From positions 62,001-126,000 of the forward strand of contig NZ_PVZF01000004.1 in NCBI RefSeq assembly GCF_003002055.1: DNA of 64,000 nt, given 5' to 3'. The position numbers were made by a program, and so were the translations under genes. This document shows positions 39,922-62,135 of this stretch, piece after piece. The notes under the pieces were generated by a model. It was given only the letters and a program-made list of their open reading frames with translations, was not told where the DNA came from and ran no database searches. The stretch comes from Kineococcus rhizosphaerae (GTDB taxonomy: Bacteria; Actinomycetota; Actinomycetes; Actinomycetales; Kineococcaceae). Each line of letters starts with the position of its first letter. Position 1 is the first letter of the stretch.

Positions 39922-39994
39922 CAGGGCAGGAGGGACTCGAACCCACAACCGCCGGTTTTGGAGACCGGTGCGCTACCAATTGCGCCACTGCCCT
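39922..39994 (-). tRNA. tRNA-Trp (CCA)
   Basis: 73 bases; acceptor AGGGCAG pairs with CTGCCCT, anticodon loop TCTCCAAAA reads CCA, T-loop GGTTCGAGTCC. The 3' CCA is not encoded. Upstream of secE. Confidence 0.96.
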
Positions 39995-49158: not shown

Positions 49159-49232
49159 TAGCGAGGGCCGGACTCGAACCGGCGACCTAACGATTATGAG
49201 CCGTTCGCTCTAACCAACTGAGCTACCCCGCC
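49159..49232 (-). tRNA. tRNA-Met (CAT)
   Basis: 74 bases; acceptor GGCGGGG with CCTCGCT (two G-T pairs), anticodon CAT in GGCTCATAATC, T-arm GCCGGTTCGAGTCCGGC. A CAT anticodon can also be tRNA-Ile2 if modified, but the position next to rpmG fits elongator Met. Confidence 0.9.
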
Positions 49233-49260
49233 GTGCGTCCGGCGGAGACCGCCGGCTGCG

Positions 49261-49332
<72 letters not shown>

Positions 49333-49382
49333 ATTACGTCTTGCAGTGCCGCGTGCGCGGCCTGTGACGACCTTACACGCCA

Positions 49383-49413
49383 CGACCCGGTGCTCGGGAC
49401 GAGCACCGGGTCG
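49383..49413 (-). terminator. Terminator after tRNA-Tyr
   Basis: A perfect 13 bp stem (49383-49395 with 49401-49413) and a 5-base loop, 13 bases downstream of tRNA-Tyr, separating it from the tRNA-Thr-Met unit. Confidence 0.8.
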
Positions 49414-49425
49414 CGACTCGCGACG

Positions 49426-49507
49426 TGGCGGGTGATGGATTCGAACCAACGTAGGCTACGCCGGCGGATTTACAATCCGCTCCCTTTGGCCGCTCGGGCA
49501 ACCCGCC
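49426..49507 (-). tRNA. tRNA-Tyr (GTA)
   Basis: 82 bases with a long variable arm; acceptor GGCGGGT with ACCCGCC, anticodon GTA in GGATTGTAAATCC, T-loop GGTTCGAATCC. Confidence 0.95.
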
Positions 49508-53999: not shown

Positions 54000-55358
54000 T
54001 CAGGGACGCCGGTGGGAGGCGCCGACGTGGTCGGCCGGCAGCCGCGGGCCGGCCCCGAGCCGTTCGCGCAGGGTCGTGCCCGGCGCGACCCGCGGGGCGA
54101 TCCGGCCCCGGCGCTCCAGCTCGGGCACGAGGTGGTCGACGACGTCGGCGAAGGTGCCCGGCAGCGTGGCGTACATGAGGTTGAACCCGTCGACGTCGGC
54201 CTGCTCGGCGAACTCCTCGAGCTGGTCGGCCACGGTCTGCGGGGACCCGGCCAGCACCGGCCCGCGCCCGCCGACGGTGACGAACCGCGCGAGGTCGTCG
54301 ATCGTCCACTCGCGGTCGGGGTCGTCGGTGAAGCTGCGCAGCGCGGAGCGGTTGGCGTCGGTGGTGACGTGCTGCAGCGTCTCGCCGGGGTCCAGACCGG
54401 CGAGGTCGACCCCGGTCCAGCCGCCGAACAGCGCGAGGGCCCCCTCGCGGCTGGCGTGCTCGCGGTAGTCGGCCAGCAGGGCCCGCGCCTCGGCGTCGGT
54501 GCTGCGCACGACGGCGGTCAGGCCGGCGTACACGGCGACCGAGCGGGGGTCGCGACCGGCTTCGGAGATCTTGCGGCGCAACGAGTCCACCGACCGGCGG
54601 GCGATCGCGGCGGTGGGCGCGATGACGAAGACGCACTCGGCGTGCCGGGCGGCGAACTCCTGCCCGCGCGGGGAGGACCCCGCCTGGAAGATCACGGGCG
54701 TGCGCTGCGGGGACGGTTCGCACAGGAACGCGCCGGGCACGTCGAAGTAGCGGCCGTGGTGGTCGATGTCGTGGACCTTGGCGGGGTCGGCGTAGACGCC
54801 GCGCGCGGTGTCGCGCACGACGGCGTCGTCCTCCCAGGACCCCTCCCACAGCTTGTAGCAGACCTCGAGGTACTCCTCGGCGACGTCGTACCGCTCGTCG
54901 TGGGCGACCTGCGCGGAGAAACCCAGGTTCCTGGCGGCGGAGTCGAGGTAGCCGGTCACGACGTTCCACGCGACGCGGCCGTCGGTGAGGTGGTCCAGCG
55001 TCGTCAGCCGCCGGGCCAGCGAGTACGGCTGCTCGTAGGTCGTCGTGACGGTCAGCCCGAAGCCGAGGGTCCGCGTGACGGCCGCCATGGCCGAGACCGC
55101 GGCCAGCGGGTCGTTGACGGGCACCTGCACGGCGCCGCGCACGGCCGCGTCGCGCGAGCCGGCGTAGACGTCGTAGGTGCCGAGGACGTCGGCGAGGAAC
55201 AGCGCGTCGAACCCGCCGCGCTCGAGGAGCTGGGCGAGGTCGGTCCAGTGCCGCAGCGTGCGGTAGTCGGCGCTGCGGTCCTCCGGGCGCGACCACAGGC
55301 CGGCGGCCTGGTGCCCGACGCAGGCCATCGTGAAGGCGTTCAGCCGCAACGGGTTCAC
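54000..55358 (-). CDS. Flavin-dependent monooxygenase, NtaA/SnaA/DszA/DmoA family
   Basis: 452 residues from GTG 55358 (VNPLRLNAFTMACVGHQAAG). The luciferase-like fold has family marks DALFLADVLGTYD, VTTTYEQPYSLARRLTTLDH, GRVAWNVVTGYLDSAARN and VIFQAGSSPRGQEFAARHAE. Members are FMNH2-dependent two-component enzymes acting on organosulfur compounds, nitrilotriacetate and similar substrates; the reductase is usually separate and none is adjacent. The start overlaps the MFS transporter stop as GTGA. The S-box upstream of the pair points to a sulfur substrate. Confidence 0.9.
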   Translation of the reverse strand: MNPLRLNAFTMACVGHQAAGLWSRPEDRSADYRTLRHWTDLAQLLERGGFDALFLADVLGTYDVYAGSRDAAVRGAVQVPVNDPLAAVSAMAAVTRTLGFGLTVTTTYEQPYSLARRLTTLDHLTDGRVAWNVVTGYLDSAARNLGFSAQVAHDERYDVAEEYLEVCYKLWEGSWEDDAVVRDTARGVYADPAKVHDIDHHGRYFDVPGAFLCEPSPQRTPVIFQAGSSPRGQEFAARHAECVFVIAPTAAIARRSVDSLRRKISEAGRDPRSVAVYAGLTAVVRSTDAEARALLADYREHASREGALALFGGWTGVDLAGLDPGETLQHVTTDANRSALRSFTDDPDREWTIDDLARFVTVGGRGPVLAGSPQTVADQLEEFAEQADVDGFNLMYATLPGTFADVVDHLVPELERRGRIAPRVAPGTTLRERLGAGPRLPADHVGASHRRP

Positions 55359-56686
55359 CGGGCACCCGCGTCCAGGGGCGCGTGCGCGGTCTCGCGGGTG
55401 AGCGCGGCCGAGACGGTCGTCAGGACCGCCAGGAGCGAGAGGTAGCCCGCGACCAGCCACGGGCGTCCGCCCCCGGCCGCCAGCAGCGAGGCGGCGATGA
55501 GGGGCGTCAGGCCACCGCCGAGGACGGCCCCGATCGAGTACCCCAGCGACGCCCCGCTGTAGCGGGTGCGGTCGTCGAACTGCTCGGCGAAGAACGCGCC
55601 CTGCGCGCCGTACTGGCTGTCGTGGCCGAGGTTGATCGCGATGACGACCGCGCCGACGATCAGGACCGTCGACCCCGTGTCGAGCAGCAGGAAGGCGGGG
55701 ACGGTGAACACCGCGGTGAGCACCGCCCCGAACAGGTAGACGGGCCGGCGGCCGATCCGGTCGGACAGCAGCCCCCACAGCGGGGTCGCGGCCAGGCTCA
55801 GCACCGAGGCCACGAGGACGGCGAGCAGGCCGACGTCGGCGCCGTCGGAGCGGACGTGGTTCGTCAGGTAGCTGAGGGCGAAGACGGTGTAGAGGACGTA
55901 CGCGCCGTTCTGCCCCAGCCGCATGCCGGTGGTCAGGAGCACACCGCGCCGGTTGCGCCGCAGCACCTCCGCGACGGGCCGGTGGGCCGTGGCGTCGGCC
56001 TCGCGCAACGCCGTGAAGGCCGGGGAGTCGGTGACCTTCAGGCGGATCAGCAGGCCGACGACGACGAGGACGGCGCTGGCCAGGAAGGGGACGCGCCAGC
56101 CCCAGGCCAGGAAGGCGTCGTCGCTGGTCAGGGCGCGGGCCAGCCAGAACCCGCCGCTGGCCAGCACCATCCCGGCGGCCGAGCCCATCTGCGGGATCGC
56201 CCCGAACAGCCCGCGGCGCCCGGGCGGGGCGTGCTCGACGGACAGCAGGACGGCCCCGCCCCACTCCCCGCCGGCGGAGAAGCCCTGCAGGAGCCGGCAC
56301 AGGACGAGCAGGACGGGCGCCCAGACCCCGACCTGGGCGTGGGTGGGCAGCACGCCGATCGCGGCCGTCGAGACGCCCATGGTCAGCAGCGAGGCGACGA
56401 GGACGACCTTGCGGCCCAGGCGGTCGCCGAGGTGGCCGGCGACGGCGCCGCCGAGCGGGCGGGCCACGAACCCGACGGCGTAGGTGGCGAAGGCGGCGAT
56501 GACGCCGACCGCGCCGCCGACGGTCGGGAAGAACAGCGGCCCGAGGACGAGGGCGGCCGCGGTGCCGTAGAGGTAGTAGTCGTACCACTCGATCGTGGTG
56601 CCGACGAAGCTGCCGAGGGCGGCTCGGCGGCGCGCCAGGCGGGCGCCGGGGCGCACGAGGACGTCGGAGGACTGCGTGGTGCTCAC
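55355..56686 (-). CDS. MFS transporter, metabolite:H+ symporter (MHS) family
   Basis: 443 residues from GTG 56686, with GGGAG before it. The MHS signature GSFVGTTIEWYDYYLYGTAA is at the N-terminus, DRLGRKVVLVASLLTMG in the second loop, and GFSAGGEWGGAVLLSVEHAP in the middle. Twelve hydrophobic segments. Likely imports a small organic acid or organosulfur compound. Its ribosome site overlaps the 3' strand of the preceding riboswitch, so translation should fall when SAM is plentiful. Confidence 0.9.
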   Translation of the reverse strand: MSTTQSSDVLVRPGARLARRRAALGSFVGTTIEWYDYYLYGTAAALVLGPLFFPTVGGAVGVIAAFATYAVGFVARPLGGAVAGHLGDRLGRKVVLVASLLTMGVSTAAIGVLPTHAQVGVWAPVLLVLCRLLQGFSAGGEWGGAVLLSVEHAPPGRRGLFGAIPQMGSAAGMVLASGGFWLARALTSDDAFLAWGWRVPFLASAVLVVVGLLIRLKVTDSPAFTALREADATAHRPVAEVLRRNRRGVLLTTGMRLGQNGAYVLYTVFALSYLTNHVRSDGADVGLLAVLVASVLSLAATPLWGLLSDRIGRRPVYLFGAVLTAVFTVPAFLLLDTGSTVLIVGAVVIAINLGHDSQYGAQGAFFAEQFDDRTRYSGASLGYSIGAVLGGGLTPLIAASLLAAGGGRPWLVAGYLSLLAVLTTVSAALTRETAHAPLDAGAR

Positions 56687-56690
56687 GGGG

Positions 56691-56777
56691 CTCCCATCGG
56701 TCCCGGCGGTAGCACCTGCCCTCGCGGGTGGTTGCTGCGACGTCGACGAGCCGGGTCTCTCGGTCGCTCTGGATGGC
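56691..56777 (-). ncRNA. SAM-I (S-box) riboswitch
   Basis: The minus-strand RNA contains CCAUCCAGAGCGACCGAGAG, GACCCGGCUCG, GUCGCAGCAACC, AGGUGCUACCGCC and GAUGGGAG in order, matching the S-box core (AGAG...GAGGGA, GCAACC, AGGUGC). P1 is CCAUC with GAUGG (56772-56776 with 56694-56698), P2 is GCGAC/GUCGC, and P3 is a CCC-GGG hairpin. The 3' P1 strand carries the GGGAG ribosome site of the next gene, so regulation is probably at translation. Recognised by eye without a covariance search. Confidence 0.8.
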
Positions 56778-56878
56778 TGCGCCGAACCTACGACGGGATG
56801 ATCGGGTGGGCAAACCGCGTCCCGGGGAGCCCGGGACCACGTGCGGTTCAGAGGTTCGTCACAGGCGGGGGTGGGACG

Positions 56879-57688
56879 GTGCGCCGTGTGAGGGGATCGA
56901 CACGCTTCGGAGCCGTCTTCGTCCTCCTGCTCGGCTGCGTCGCCGCCGCCGTCCCCGCGGACCCCACCTCCCCGCGCGCCGCCGCCGGACCCCCCGGCGT
57001 CCCCGGCGCGGCCACCGCGCAGGGCGTGGCCACGGCGAAGGTCGTGGCCCTCGGCGACTCCGTGCCCAGCGGCGCCCACTGCGACTGCGACCCCTACCCC
57101 GCCCTCGTCGCGCAGGCGCTCGGCCCGGCCTGGTCCCTCGACCAGCTCGCCGAGGACGGGGCGACCTCCACCGACACCGCGCAGACCGCGCAGGACAGCC
57201 TGGCGACCATCGGCGGCGGCGACCTCGTCCTGCTCGAGACCGGGGCCAACGACCTCGCGCCGTTCGTCGACGCCGACCCGCTGCCCACGCCCGCCCAGGT
57301 CGACACCGCGGTCGACGACGCCGTGGACCGGGTGACCGCGACGCTGGACCGGCTCGGCCCCACGGGCGCCCGCGTCGTCGTCCTGGACTACTGGGCCGTC
57401 GGGCTCGACGGGGACGTGGCCGCCCGGACCTACACGGGCCCGCAGGAGCAGGTGCAGGACGAGCTGACGGACGCGTTCGACGACCGCCTCGCGGCCGTCG
57501 TCGGGCCGCGCGCCACCGTCGTGGGCCTGCGGCCCGTCTTCCACGGCCCCGACGGCGCGCAGGACCCGACGGCCCTGCTGGCCGACGACGGCGACCACCC
57601 CGACACCGCCGGCCACGAGGCCATCGCCGCCGCCGTGCTGGCCGCCCTGCACCGGGAGAACGCCACAGGTTCACCGAACATCCCCTGA
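56879..57688 (+). CDS. Secreted SGNH/GDSL-family hydrolase
   Basis: 269 residues from GTG 56879 (VRRVRGSTRFGAVFVLLLGC). A signal peptide of about 25-30 residues is followed by a short Pro/Ala region. Block I is VVALGDSVPSGAHCDCDPYP with the catalytic Ser, block III ETGANDLAPF with Asn, and block V DDGDHPDTAGHEAIA with Asp and His. Extracellular ester hydrolase. Substrate unknown. It is divergent from the riboswitch-controlled operon, with which it shares a 180-base gap. Confidence 0.88.
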   Translation: MRRVRGSTRFGAVFVLLLGCVAAAVPADPTSPRAAAGPPGVPGAATAQGVATAKVVALGDSVPSGAHCDCDPYPALVAQALGPAWSLDQLAEDGATSTDTAQTAQDSLATIGGGDLVLLETGANDLAPFVDADPLPTPAQVDTAVDDAVDRVTATLDRLGPTGARVVVLDYWAVGLDGDVAARTYTGPQEQVQDELTDAFDDRLAAVVGPRATVVGLRPVFHGPDGAQDPTALLADDGDHPDTAGHEAIAAAVLAALHRENATGSPNIP

Positions 57689-58892: not shown

Positions 58893-58936
58893 TGGTCGGA
58901 GGGTGGTCAGAGGTTGGTCGGGGGGTGGTCAGCCGC
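58893..58936. repeat. Short 11-bp tandem repeat
   Basis: TGGTC recurs at 58893, 58904, 58915 and 58926, an 11-base unit such as TGGTCGGAGGG repeated about four times with small changes. It fills the 44-base gap between the convergent esterase and etfA genes and includes the etfA stop codon. Confidence 0.75.
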
Positions 58937-59900
58937 GGCGGGCGCGCAGGGCCGCGGTGAGCGCGGGCAGGACCTCGGTGAGGTCGCCCACGACCCCGTA
59001 GTCGGCGAACTCGAAGATCGGCGCGTCCGGGTCGTTGTTGATCGCGACGATCGTCTGCGCGGCGGCCATCCCACCCTTGTGGTGCACGGCCCCGGACACC
59101 CCGGCCCCCACGTACAGCCGCGGCGAGATCGTCACACCGGTCTGCCCGACCTGCGCCTCGTGCCCGATCCAGCCCTCGTCGGTCGCGACGCGGGTCGCGC
59201 CCACGGCCGCCCCGAGGACGTCGGCGAGCTCCTCGACCCCGGAGAAGTCGCCCTCGACCCCGCGGCCGCCGACGACGACGACCTCCGCCTCGGCCAGCGC
59301 GGGCCGCTCGCTGCGCGGGCGCGGCTCGCGGGAGACGACGCTCACGGCGCGCGCGGCGGCCGAGGCCTGCACGGCGTGCTCGACGAGCCGCGTCTCGGCC
59401 GGCACCGCCAGCGGGGCCGCCTGCACGGCGTGCGGGGCGAGCGCGACCACCGCCAGGGAGGACGCCGCGGCGCAGGCGGTGTCCCACGTCCCGGCCAGGA
59501 CGGTCTTGCGGGCCGTCCAGTGCCCGTCGGCGAGCTCCACGCCCGAGGCGCCCGTGACGACCCCGGCGCCGGTCCGCACCGCCAGCCGCGCGGCGACCTC
59601 CTTGCCCTCGAAGGTCGAGGCAACCAGCAGCAGCGACACGTCGCCCAGGGCGGTCAGGACCGTCTGCAGCCCGTCGACGACCGAGGTCGTCAGGTGCTCG
59701 TCGGCGCCCTCGACCCGGACGACGTGCAGCGCGTCCGCGCCGTGGGCGGCCACCACCTCGGCCTGCGGGTCCGCGCCGGTCCAGACGGCGTGCACCGGCA
59801 GACCGGTGGTCGAGGCCAGCTGGCGGGCCAAGGTGAGCAGCTCCAGCGAGGTGCTGCGGACGTGGCCGTCGGTGTGGTCGACGAGGACGGCGATGCTCAC
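58929..59900 (-). CDS. etfA: Electron transfer flavoprotein subunit alpha
   Basis: FAD-binding subunit of ETF, an electron carrier between acyl-CoA dehydrogenases and the membrane. From GTG 59900 (VSIAVLVDHTDGHVRST), 323 residues. The FAD domain has GQTGVTISPRLYVGAGVSGA, VHHKGGM and AINNDPDAPIFEFADYGVVG. The start overlaps the etfB stop. Confidence 0.95.
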   Translation of the reverse strand: MSIAVLVDHTDGHVRSTSLELLTLARQLASTTGLPVHAVWTGADPQAEVVAAHGADALHVVRVEGADEHLTTSVVDGLQTVLTALGDVSLLLVASTFEGKEVAARLAVRTGAGVVTGASGVELADGHWTARKTVLAGTWDTACAAASSLAVVALAPHAVQAAPLAVPAETRLVEHAVQASAAARAVSVVSREPRPRSERPALAEAEVVVVGGRGVEGDFSGVEELADVLGAAVGATRVATDEGWIGHEAQVGQTGVTISPRLYVGAGVSGAVHHKGGMAAAQTIVAINNDPDAPIFEFADYGVVGDLTEVLPALTAALRARRG

Positions 59901-60712
59901 GCGAAACCCTTCTCGGACAGGTAGTCCACCAGCGCGGGGACGGTCTCGGCGTCCCCGGTGACGAGCACGCGGTCGGAGCGCTCGGGACGTTCGGCGGCCT
60001 GCGCGACCCACGTCGCGGACCCGGCGGAGCCCACGGTCGCCGGGTCCACGCCGAGGTCGGCCAGCGACCAGGTCGCGACCGGCTTCTTGCGCGCGGCCAC
60101 GATCCCCTTGAAGTTCGGGAAGCGGGCGCGGAAGGCCTGGTCGGTCACCGACAGCACCGCCGGGGCGGGCGCGGTGAGCACCTCGACGTCGGTGGAGGTC
60201 TCCCGGCGCACCGTGACGAGCCCGTCGGTGACCTCGATGCGGTCGGCCAGCGTGAGCTGGGGCCAGCCCAGGACCTCGGCCAGCGCGGCCGGGACCAGCG
60301 ACGTCAGCCCGTCCAGGGCCGCCATGCCCGCGACGACGAGGTCGACGGGCTGCTCGGCGTGCAGCTTCGCCACCGCGGCCGCCAGCACGCGGGCCGTGGC
60401 GATCGCGTCGGAGCCCGCGAGGGCCTCGTCGCTGACGTGGACGGCGGTGGACGCGCCCATCGCCAGCCCGCGGCGCAGGGCCTCCACGGCCGGGGCCGGG
60501 CCGACGGTCAGGACCGTCACGTCGTGGCCCTCCCCCCCGTCGTCCTTCCCGAACCCGGCGGCCTCGGCGGTGCGCAGCCCGGCCTCGAGGGCGTCCTCGT
60601 CCAGCTCGTTGAGGGTGTCGTCGTCCCCGCCGCGGACGAGCCGGCCATCCTCCCCCAGGGACCGGGCCGACTGCAGGTCGGGGACGTGCTTGACGCAGAC
60701 GACGACGCGCAC
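59897..60712 (-). CDS. etfB: Electron transfer flavoprotein subunit beta
   Basis: 271 residues: [50 protein letters not shown] and the C-terminal TVRRETSTDVEVLTAPAPAV. AMP-binding partner of EtfA, overlapping it by four bases, and one base past the fprA-type gene. Confidence 0.95.
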   Translation of the reverse strand: MRVVVCVKHVPDLQSARSLGEDGRLVRGGDDDTLNELDEDALEAGLRTAEAAGFGKDDGGEGHDVTVLTVGPAPAVEALRRGLAMGASTAVHVSDEALAGSDAIATARVLAAAVAKLHAEQPVDLVVAGMAALDGLTSLVPAALAEVLGWPQLTLADRIEVTDGLVTVRRETSTDVEVLTAPAPAVLSVTDQAFRARFPNFKGIVAARKKPVATWSLADLGVDPATVGSAGSATWVAQAAERPERSDRVLVTGDAETVPALVDYLSEKGFA

Positions 60713-60713
60713 G

Positions 60714-62135
60714 TCAGCCGACCCTGCGGGAGGCCTTGATCATGTCCTCGCGGGACACGACCTTGACGCGCTCGCGGCCGTGGGGCTCGCCCAGGGCCCG
60801 CTCGAACGCGTCGAGGACCTCCCAGTCGGTCCAGGTCAGGACGTCGACGCCCTTGTCCCGCAGGAAGTCCAGGATCGCCTGCGGGTCCGGCTCGCTCGCG
60901 CGGGAGAACCGCGCGGCGTCGGCCACGAGGTGCTTGACGGTCTCGGAGGCGTCGGACTTGGTGTGCCCGATGAGCCCGACGGGACCGCGCTTGATCCAGC
61001 CCGTCACGTAGACGCCGTCCACCGGCTCGCCCTCGGGGGACACGACGCGGCCCTCGTGGTTGGAGATGACGCCCGCGAGCTCGTCGAACGGCAGGCCCGG
61101 CAGCGGGGAGCCGAAGTACCCGACCGCGCGGTAGACGGCCTGCACGTCCCAGTCGTGCAGGTCGCCGGTGCCCTCGACGGTGCCGTCGCCCACCAGGCGG
61201 GTGCGTTCGGTCCGCAGGCCCGTGACGTGGCCGTCGGCGCCGGTGACGATCTCGGCGGGGGCGTGCAGGAAGTGCAGGTGGATGCGGCGCGAGGCCGTCG
61301 ACTCCCCCTCCTTCAGCGTCCAGTCCGTCAGCGTCTTGACGACCTGGCGGGTCTGGTTGGACTTCGCGATGGCCGCCTCGGAGCCCTCGTCGAACTCGAA
61401 GTCCTCCGGGTCGACGATGACGTCGACGTCGGGGACGTGACCGAGCTCACGCAGCTCCAGCGGCGAGAACTTCACCTGCGCGGGACCGCGACGGGCGAAG
61501 ACGTGCACGTCGGTGACCTTCGAGGCCTTCAGGCCCTCGTACACGTTGGCCGGGATCTCGGTGGGGAGCAGGTCGTCGGCGTGCTTGGCCAGCACGCGCG
61601 CCACGTCGAGGGCGACGTTGCCGGCCCCGAGGACCGCGACGGAGGCGGCGTCCAGCGGCCACTCGCGCGGGTAGTCGGGGTGGCCGTCGTACCAGGAGAC
61701 GAAGTCGGCCGCGCCGAAGCTCTCGGGGGCGTCGACCCCGGGGATCGTCAGCGGGGCGTCCTTGATCGCGCCGGTGGAGAAGACGACGGCGTCGTAGTGG
61801 CGCCGCAGGTCCTCCAGGGTGACGTCGGTGCCGAAGTCGACGTTCGTCAGCAGCCGGATGTCGCCGCGCCCCAGCACCTTCTGCAGGGCCACGATGATCT
61901 GCTTGATGCGCGGGTGGTCGGGCGCGACGCCGTAGCGCACGAGCCCGAACGGCGCGGGCAGGCGCTCGAACAGGTCGATGCCGACGCCGTCGAAGCCCGT
62001 GGCCGACAGGTCGGCCTTGGAGAGGATGTCCGAGGCGTAGATCCCGGCCGGTCCGGCTCCCACGACGGCGACGCGCAGCGGACGGTTCGAATCGGTCACA
62101 GCTCTCGGTGTCCCTGTCTCTCGAGGAGGATTCAT
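60714..62135 (-). CDS. fprA: Ferredoxin/adrenodoxin-type NADP reductase (FprA-like)
   Basis: 473 residues. FAD motif VAVVGAGPAGIYASDIL at about 23-36, active-site region FGLVRYGVAPDHPR, and NADP motif VAVLGAGNVALDVARVL. ESTASRRIHLHF and VYVTGWIKRGPVGLIGHTKS are typical of the adrenodoxin-reductase family (FprA). It supplies electrons to ferredoxins. The ATG at 62135 or a GTG at 62099 (VTDSNRPLRVAVV) could be the start; a TAGGCT -10-like box nine bases before the ATG would make a leaderless mRNA. Next to etfBA. Confidence 0.92.
   Translation of the reverse strand: MNPPRETGTPRAVTDSNRPLRVAVVGAGPAGIYASDILSKADLSATGFDGVGIDLFERLPAPFGLVRYGVAPDHPRIKQIIVALQKVLGRGDIRLLTNVDFGTDVTLEDLRRHYDAVVFSTGAIKDAPLTIPGVDAPESFGAADFVSWYDGHPDYPREWPLDAASVAVLGAGNVALDVARVLAKHADDLLPTEIPANVYEGLKASKVTDVHVFARRGPAQVKFSPLELRELGHVPDVDVIVDPEDFEFDEGSEAAIAKSNQTRQVVKTLTDWTLKEGESTASRRIHLHFLHAPAEIVTGADGHVTGLRTERTRLVGDGTVEGTGDLHDWDVQAVYRAVGYFGSPLPGLPFDELAGVISNHEGRVVSPEGEPVDGVYVTGWIKRGPVGLIGHTKSDASETVKHLVADAARFSRASEPDPQAILDFLRDKGVDVLTWTDWEVLDAFERALGEPHGRERVKVVSREDMIKASRRVG

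Follow-up and report, generated by a model that had tools for sequence, protein, structure and literature searches.

A 64,000-nucleotide stretch of the Kineococcus rhizosphaerae genome (contig NZ_PVZF01000004.1, positions 62,001 to 126,000; here called the window) carries a predicted S-adenosylmethionine (SAM) riboswitch of the SAM-I (S-box) class in front of genes for a major facilitator superfamily (MFS) transporter and a flavin mononucleotide (FMN)-dependent monooxygenase. The arrangement, first described in an earlier note made from the sequence alone, is confirmed by our analysis. The riboswitch is very probably a translational OFF switch controlling an operon for the uptake and monooxygenation of an organosulfur compound.

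The S-box aptamer and its overlap with the ribosome site

Searched against the complete set of Rfam families, the window yielded a single riboswitch, RF00162, which matched over the full length of the model (1–108) with a score of 52.0 bits (gathering score, 44.4; E-value, 4.4e-9 over the window). With a score above the curated cut-off and no competing riboswitch family, including SAM-IV, the site is assigned to SAM-I. A permissive rescan of positions 56600–56900 returned RF00162, two chance-level matches far under the cut-off, and no SAM-IV or other riboswitch, which rules out a different class at this site. The earlier note had placed the S-box core in a minus-strand leader at 56691–56777; the covariance search bears this out, RF00162 being the only significant family and its match beginning two bases beyond 56777 (Table 1).

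Table 1. Coordinates of the riboswitch and operon features in the window
Feature	Position	Strand	Basis
SAM-I (S-box) aptamer	56691..56779	-	RF00162, 52.0 bits; kept in 5 orthologous leaders
P1 5′ strand, CCAUC	56772..56776	-	Sequence; identical in 90/90 family sites
P1 3′ strand, GAUGG	56694..56698	-	Sequence; identical in 90/90 family sites
Shine-Dalgarno sequence of transporter gene, GGGAG	56691..56695	-	Sequence; GG common to P1
Gene for MFS transporter (443 aa; GTG start)	55355..56686	-	Closest to TIGR00883 (metabolite/H+ symporter) and the shikimate transporter family, each under cut-off
Gene for NtaA/DmoA-type FMN-dependent monooxygenase (452 aa; GTG start)	54000..55358	-	TIGR03860

The 3′ strand of the closing stem (P1) and the Shine-Dalgarno sequence of the transporter gene have two bases in common, in agreement with the overlap claimed in the note, and the GTG start codon follows at 56686–56684. 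This direct arrangement (Shine-Dalgarno sequence in the P1 3′ strand, start codon close by) recurs in five orthologous leaders; all six leaders, that of the window included, carry GATGGGAG at the 3′ end of P1. Transporter orthologs are present in six of the 11 genomes of the genus (that of K. rhizosphaerae and five others, at 82–94% identity), and in each of the six an S-box lies directly upstream, the transporter start falls 5–12 positions past the last S-box base, and the monooxygenase gene follows the transporter. For one of them (G008) the gene caller took a longer transporter start, and the GTG fitting the other orthologs is at position 6. Weaker transporter matches (43–49%) in G005, G006, and G008 have no RF00162 match nearby.

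The family survey covered 12 Kineococcaceae genomes, K. rhizosphaerae included, and the 78 S-box loci outside its own genome were fetched and read. RF00162 matched 90 times (87 over the cut-off), with 4–13 matches per genome. P1 is invariant in all 90 sites, with GGAG or GGGG at its 3′ end in 86; compensating pairs occur in P2, where C-G is replaced by U-A in eight sites and G-C by A-U in seven.

At high SAM the aptamer would close P1 and with it hide the part of the transporter ribosome site that lies in the 3′ strand of this stem, and neither the transporter nor the translationally coupled monooxygenase would be made. At low SAM, and hence low methionine and reduced sulfur, P1 would open and free the ribosome site; an uptake system and an FMNH2-dependent, C-S-cleaving monooxygenase might then supply sulfur from an organosulfur compound.

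Operon genes, the S-box regulon, and competing readings

The transporter stop and the monooxygenase start overlap by four bases (GTGA), the overlap described in the note. The monooxygenase passes the NtaA/DmoA model TIGR03860 (535.8 bits; cut-off, 279.7), the family to which it had been assigned, and among solved structures its best relative is a dimethyl-sulfide monooxygenase (6ak1), aligned over almost the entire length at 532 bits. Alignment to 6ak1 shows 16 of 20 published DmoA binding residues to be kept, with S137G, A229S, G231P, and L367R as the changes; the residue list comes from the accessible part of PMC9259527. Because the recombinant DmoA enzymes assayed there gave, according to that part, no detectable methanethiol, the family name is not proof of the substrate.

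Pfam places the transporter in the MFS (Sugar_tr and MFS_1), and its best NCBIfam match is TIGR00883. The metabolite/H+ symporter (MHS) type proposed for it is likely but not certified, because the score of 409 bits is under the cut-off of 443.45; a sequence search at 1e-5 gave no matching PDB chain. The note had also reported no adjacent reductase partner, and contig C4, which holds the window, has none of the genome's matches to the flavin-reductase families PF01613 and PF03358 (four each). Two EtfA/EtfB-looking genes and one ferredoxin-NADP reductase-looking gene (identified by eye) are located at 58929–62099, about 2 kb from the operon, and might be connected with the supply of reduced flavin. 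The other four Rfam matches of the window are tRNA genes (39922–39994 and 49159–49507, minus strand).

The K. rhizosphaerae genome holds 12 RF00162 matches, all above the cut-off; the genes behind them were called with a purpose-written script and then subjected to family searches. Apart from the one in the window, S-boxes precede a MetF-like gene (below cut-off) and metE (1007 bits over 541); O-succinylhomoserine sulfhydrylase (738 over 618) together with a MetE-like protein and, by eye, a rhodanese-like one; an NtaA/DmoA-like enzyme, slightly under the cut-off, accompanied by a homocysteine-synthase-like protein; and SfnG (588 over 383). Another S-box precedes an ATP-binding cassette (ABC)-type system (by eye; its binding protein has no NCBIfam match) followed by an NtaA/DmoA enzyme and two SfnB-type proteins, one in the SfnB family (456 over 431) and the second SfnB/DszC-like and below the cut-off. 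Further targets include two ABC systems with nickel/peptide-type binding proteins, a cystine-like ABC system accompanied by a presumed FAD/NAD(P)-binding protein that has no NCBIfam match, and cystathionine beta-synthase-like, sulfurtransferase-like, and aminotransferase-like proteins. Because these 12 S-boxes precede SfnG, SfnB-family, and methionine and cysteine genes, SAM-repressed sulfur acquisition is the best reading of the regulon; behind an S-box of a sister genome, the SsuA family is found above its cut-off.

Three NtaA/DmoA-like enzymes, two of them above the cut-off, are also among the genes behind the other 11 K. rhizosphaerae S-boxes. At 4 of the 12 sites a TIGR03860 match follows in the same orientation at a distance of at most 5 kb, against a chance of about 2.6e-5 by a simple density estimate. 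Contig C14 of this genome (G000) contains a dense cluster of ten NtaA/DmoA-like matches (C14:141948–159618) with no RF00162 match nearby.

Homologs of the enzyme were surveyed in named genomes as its best 80 relatives, K. siccus and K. rubinsiae among them, and 79 of the loci (all except L166) were scanned with Rfam at gathering scores. Eight carry an S-box: seven Firmicutes and K. rubinsiae (L153); the sequence of another Kineococcus locus (L147) begins 43 bases ahead of the gene and therefore lacks the upstream region. The seven are among eight Firmicutes homologs (52–61% identical), and their S-boxes lie upstream on the same strand, about 0.1–2.5 kb away, at 85–104 bits; in two of these loci the distance to the enzyme gene is about 90–115 bases. 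In two Bacillus loci (L164 and L176) the S-box is followed by an FMN reductase-looking gene (by eye) and then the monooxygenase, a layout that includes the partner missing in the window. A SfnB-like gene, 40–43% identical to the Kineococcus one, lies within about 2 kb on the same strand at 12 of 13 Pseudomonas homologs. The use of an organosulfur compound as a sulfur source, as the note had supposed, is supported by the six conserved units of the genus, the 12-S-box sulfur regulon, and the Firmicutes S-boxes, with the compound itself a matter of conjecture.

Several results weigh against a translational OFF switch for organosulfur use, and those from RNA folding bear on the switch itself. Plain energy folding, which is unable to show the aptamer pseudoknot, gives the window leader no support (z 0.43). 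Over 36 direct sites, mean openness of the Shine-Dalgarno sequence is 0.41 in the free fold versus 0.36 with the aptamer imposed, with the expected direction in 21; for at least one leader (in G001) the imposed structure was unrealised, and both folds are identical. The start region of the free window RNA can pair with a P4 strand, so that even an ON switch would be allowed. The start-region pairing and the small change in openness could favor an aptamer that acts as an ON switch, or transcriptionally instead of by P1 covering the ribosome site, but the conservation of GATGGGAG in six leaders and of GGAG or GGGG in 86 of 90 sites argues for P1. Pattern searches of positions 56500–57000 found neither an intrinsic terminator nor a sigma-70-type promoter. 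A ribosome site in P1 is given as the rule for SAM-I and for Actinobacteria in the part of PMC2258182 available, and the available part of PMC1262725 describes base stems of riboswitches that directly overlap the translation start in Actinobacteria; the latter paper also reports that no conserved RNA structure precedes the methionine operons of its set, which includes K. radiotolerans. We consider ON or transcriptional control quite improbable.

The remaining objections to the translational OFF switch for organosulfur use concern the purpose of the operon. Dimethyl sulfide, being small and volatile, should need no transporter. Only 6 of the 35 TIGR03860 matches of the genome (26 over the cut-off) lie behind an S-box, and outside the Firmicutes and Kineococcus none of the scanned enzyme homologs does. 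A transporter gene lies directly upstream of the enzyme gene in 16 actinobacterial loci (Mycobacterium and its kin, Nocardia, Amycolatopsis, and Pseudonocardia), and all 16 are without an Rfam riboswitch over the cut-off. An S-box upstream of the enzyme as a general rule was rejected on these counts. A comparison of neighboring genes for a shared S-box, which the note had put forward, accordingly comes out positive in the Firmicutes and negative in the 16 actinobacterial pairs. The note had named S-box-free operons unconnected with sulfur as evidence that would tell against its proposal; the 16 pairs are S-box-free, yet both Pseudonocardia loci have an SsuA-like gene ahead of the transporter. 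Several of the GTG starts in the pair loci of Mycobacterium and other actinobacteria (L110–L122 and L125) look close to leaderless by eye.

With a real riboswitch, the enzyme might still hydroxylate an alkane or another carbon source in the manner of LadA, and SAM control would then have a different reason. Among solved relatives the alkane monooxygenase LadA (3b9n) ranks second at 478 bits, four DmoA site residues are changed, and the S-box-free homologs just described fit this explanation. DmoA nevertheless outscores LadA; a paralog in the same genome, 58% identical, sits behind another S-box beside SfnB-family genes; and both the SfnB-like neighbors in Pseudomonas and the Firmicutes S-boxes connect the enzyme with sulfur. 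A role outside sulfur metabolism is improbable.

Short reading frames behind S-boxes of the Kineococcaceae

The P1 ribosome site of other family S-boxes does not always serve the first gene of an operon. Rule-based sorting of the 90 sites gave 36 direct sites, 37 with a leader peptide, 9 coupled, and 8 left over. Inspected by eye, these eight comprise two leader peptides whose ATG lies within P1, two that have the motif and no cysteine, two in-frame SsuB-type genes, one further metF site (the tenth), and one unclear case. The curated tally is 38 direct sites, 41 leader-peptide sites (39 with cysteine), 10 metF sites with a short open reading frame (ORF), and 1 unclear site. The 12 K. rhizosphaerae S-boxes comprise four direct sites (that of the window included), one metF site, six leader peptides with cysteine (C2:172596, C14:5341, C14:12883, C14:15841, C9:266215, and C12:151886), and one without. 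Shine-Dalgarno strength in P1 differs between direct (37) and long (48) sites (-8.9 versus -7.8; P 0.007), a contrast not used as evidence because the long sites turned out to hold short ORFs.

At the cysteine-leader sites the P1 ribosome site serves an ORF of 24–51 codons with a motif resembling RR.[HV]VDL.R..S..C, the cysteine-leader type of actinobacteria. A cysteine follows the motif, near the end of the peptide, in 39 of 41; the other two keep RRHVDL. The NCBIfam family NF042934 (putative leader peptide; cut-off, 27) is the best match for six of eight typed peptides, two above and four below the cut-off; one of the others weakly matches only a different cysteine-rich leader family, and the metF ORF matches nothing. 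In the whole K. rhizosphaerae genome NF042934 exceeds its cut-off twice, once behind an S-box. Peptides of this type without an S-box are found at C2:113121 (27.4 bits) and C2:141573 (25.4 bits), the former just before two NtaA/DmoA-like matches.

Chance frames run long in high-GC DNA, and the motif pattern was composed after the peptides had been seen; as an origin of the short ORFs, chance is nonetheless scarcely credible and was rejected on two counts. A comparison of 25 related, non-independent ORFs in four groups gave synonymous/non-synonymous codon differences of 211/208 for the reading frame itself and of 88/331 and 39/378 for the two alternative frames. Among 8134 start-to-stop frames of 15–60 codons in the same loci, the motif pattern picks out 53 distinct stops, 46 of them behind S-boxes (overlapping loci being counted twice among the 46); the seven others look leader-like too, and six of these are one conserved peptide.

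The spacers between leader stop and gene start measure 43–187 bases, without overlap, at 28 sites. They are rich in C (0.54, with G at 0.27, over 30 spacers), and C minus G is positive in all 30, with a mean of 0.276 versus 0.021 in 40 control gaps (P 3e-11, a value that is too good because the sites are related). Rho loads on C-rich, G-poor RNA, and a C-rich leader spacer fits its involvement. A 2005 paper proposed Rho for mycobacterial cysteine leaders without terminators. For five leader groups, consensus folds inspected by eye showed no shared intrinsic terminator. A mechanism in which the ribosome site of the main gene is sequestered was rejected: folding of the 28 sites in the unoccupied state, and with a ribosome placed either at the first cysteine after the motif or at the stop, gave no consistent release (values are unreliable for two groups of G004, the SBP1-type, with the start off by 4 bases, and the FAD-type, off by 1).

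These features suggest a two-input gate for SAM and cysteine. On balance we favor a model in which the SAM riboswitch gates a cysteine-sensing leader peptide in the Kineococcaceae and some other actinobacteria: the leader would be read only at low SAM, through its ribosome site in P1, and the operon would be expressed only when ribosomes stall for cysteine, perhaps by shielding the C-rich Rho-binding spacer. The result would be an AND gate made of RNA, of which the window operon would be the SAM-only version. The ORFs behind the 41 family S-boxes could instead be mere relays that pass ribosomes on without sensing cysteine. Relays do seem to occur at the metF sites (C9:280460 and nine relatives), where a short ORF begins just after P1 and, according to a script rule, has a stop overlapping the start of metF at nine of the ten (the tenth, G007:C143, was placed by eye); the two cysteine-free peptides and the lack of consistent release on cysteine stalling are also in favor of relays. 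The cysteine near the end of 39 of 41 peptides, the spacers without overlap at the 28 measured sites, and the NF042934 matches argue for sensing, and a relay role at the 41 sites appears rather unlikely.

Fewer S-boxes per genome were counted outside the family. In a survey of the class with stricter filters, in which nine candidates were scored per genome, RF00162 matched in 263 of 394 genomes, nearly always once and never more than three times outside K. rhizosphaerae. Sixteen selected genomes were re-searched and 27 loci outside the family read (two further matches there had no locus). Leader peptides begin 5–8 positions after the aptamer in 4 of 17 short S-boxes (108 bases or less); two were missed by the pattern and recognized by eye. 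They precede two MetN-like genes, one nickel/peptide-type binding protein, and one cystine-like ABC gene. Several long S-boxes outside the family precede a threonine synthase-looking protein (by eye), in agreement with the Streptomyces lividans annotation as far as it appears in the available part of PMC8079986. In another actinobacterium (G363:C30:25690, L261) an S-box lies before a flavin reductase-looking protein, divergent from a MetN-like gene with an S-box of its own.

Relation to known systems and significance

The layout in the window is an already published SAM-I mechanism; it shares the RF00162 aptamer core and the ribosome site in the P1 3′ strand and adds new targets, an MFS transporter and a DmoA-like monooxygenase. 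The 4–13 matches per family genome contrast with 0–3 in the other sampled genomes of the class under the stricter filter. In its score against 6ak1 and in 16 of 20 binding residues the enzyme resembles DmoA; unlike DmoA, it differs at four site residues, is paired with an MFS transporter, and has no adjacent reductase gene.

Known cysteine leader peptides of actinobacteria (NF042934 and the Ms4527A and Ms5788A families; Canestrari 2020, as cited in another paper) likewise carry RR-[HV]VDL-R..S..C before sulfur genes. In contrast to these, the Kineococcus leaders have their ribosome site in P1 of a SAM riboswitch; the window has no such leader. Riboswitch control of a short ORF that is itself coupled to a gene is already known for B12 in Mycobacterium tuberculosis, where, according to the accessible part of PMC11260477, the stop of the ppe2 upstream ORF overlaps the gene start, as it seemingly does at metF here. 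The family sites differ from ppe2 in their predicted response to SAM rather than B12, and 41 of them hold a cysteine-leader ORF with a spacer, not an overlap, where measured. No report of a SAM riboswitch driving a cysteine leader peptide was found in the open-licence literature, most subscription journals being beyond reach.

If the gate holds, it would be a natural two-input switch in which a riboswitch decides whether a ribosome-stalling sensor is read at all. Through their RNA switch, flavin monooxygenases and transporters whose assignment is poor are connected with sulfur scavenging, and the S-box operons provide a short list for substrate testing.

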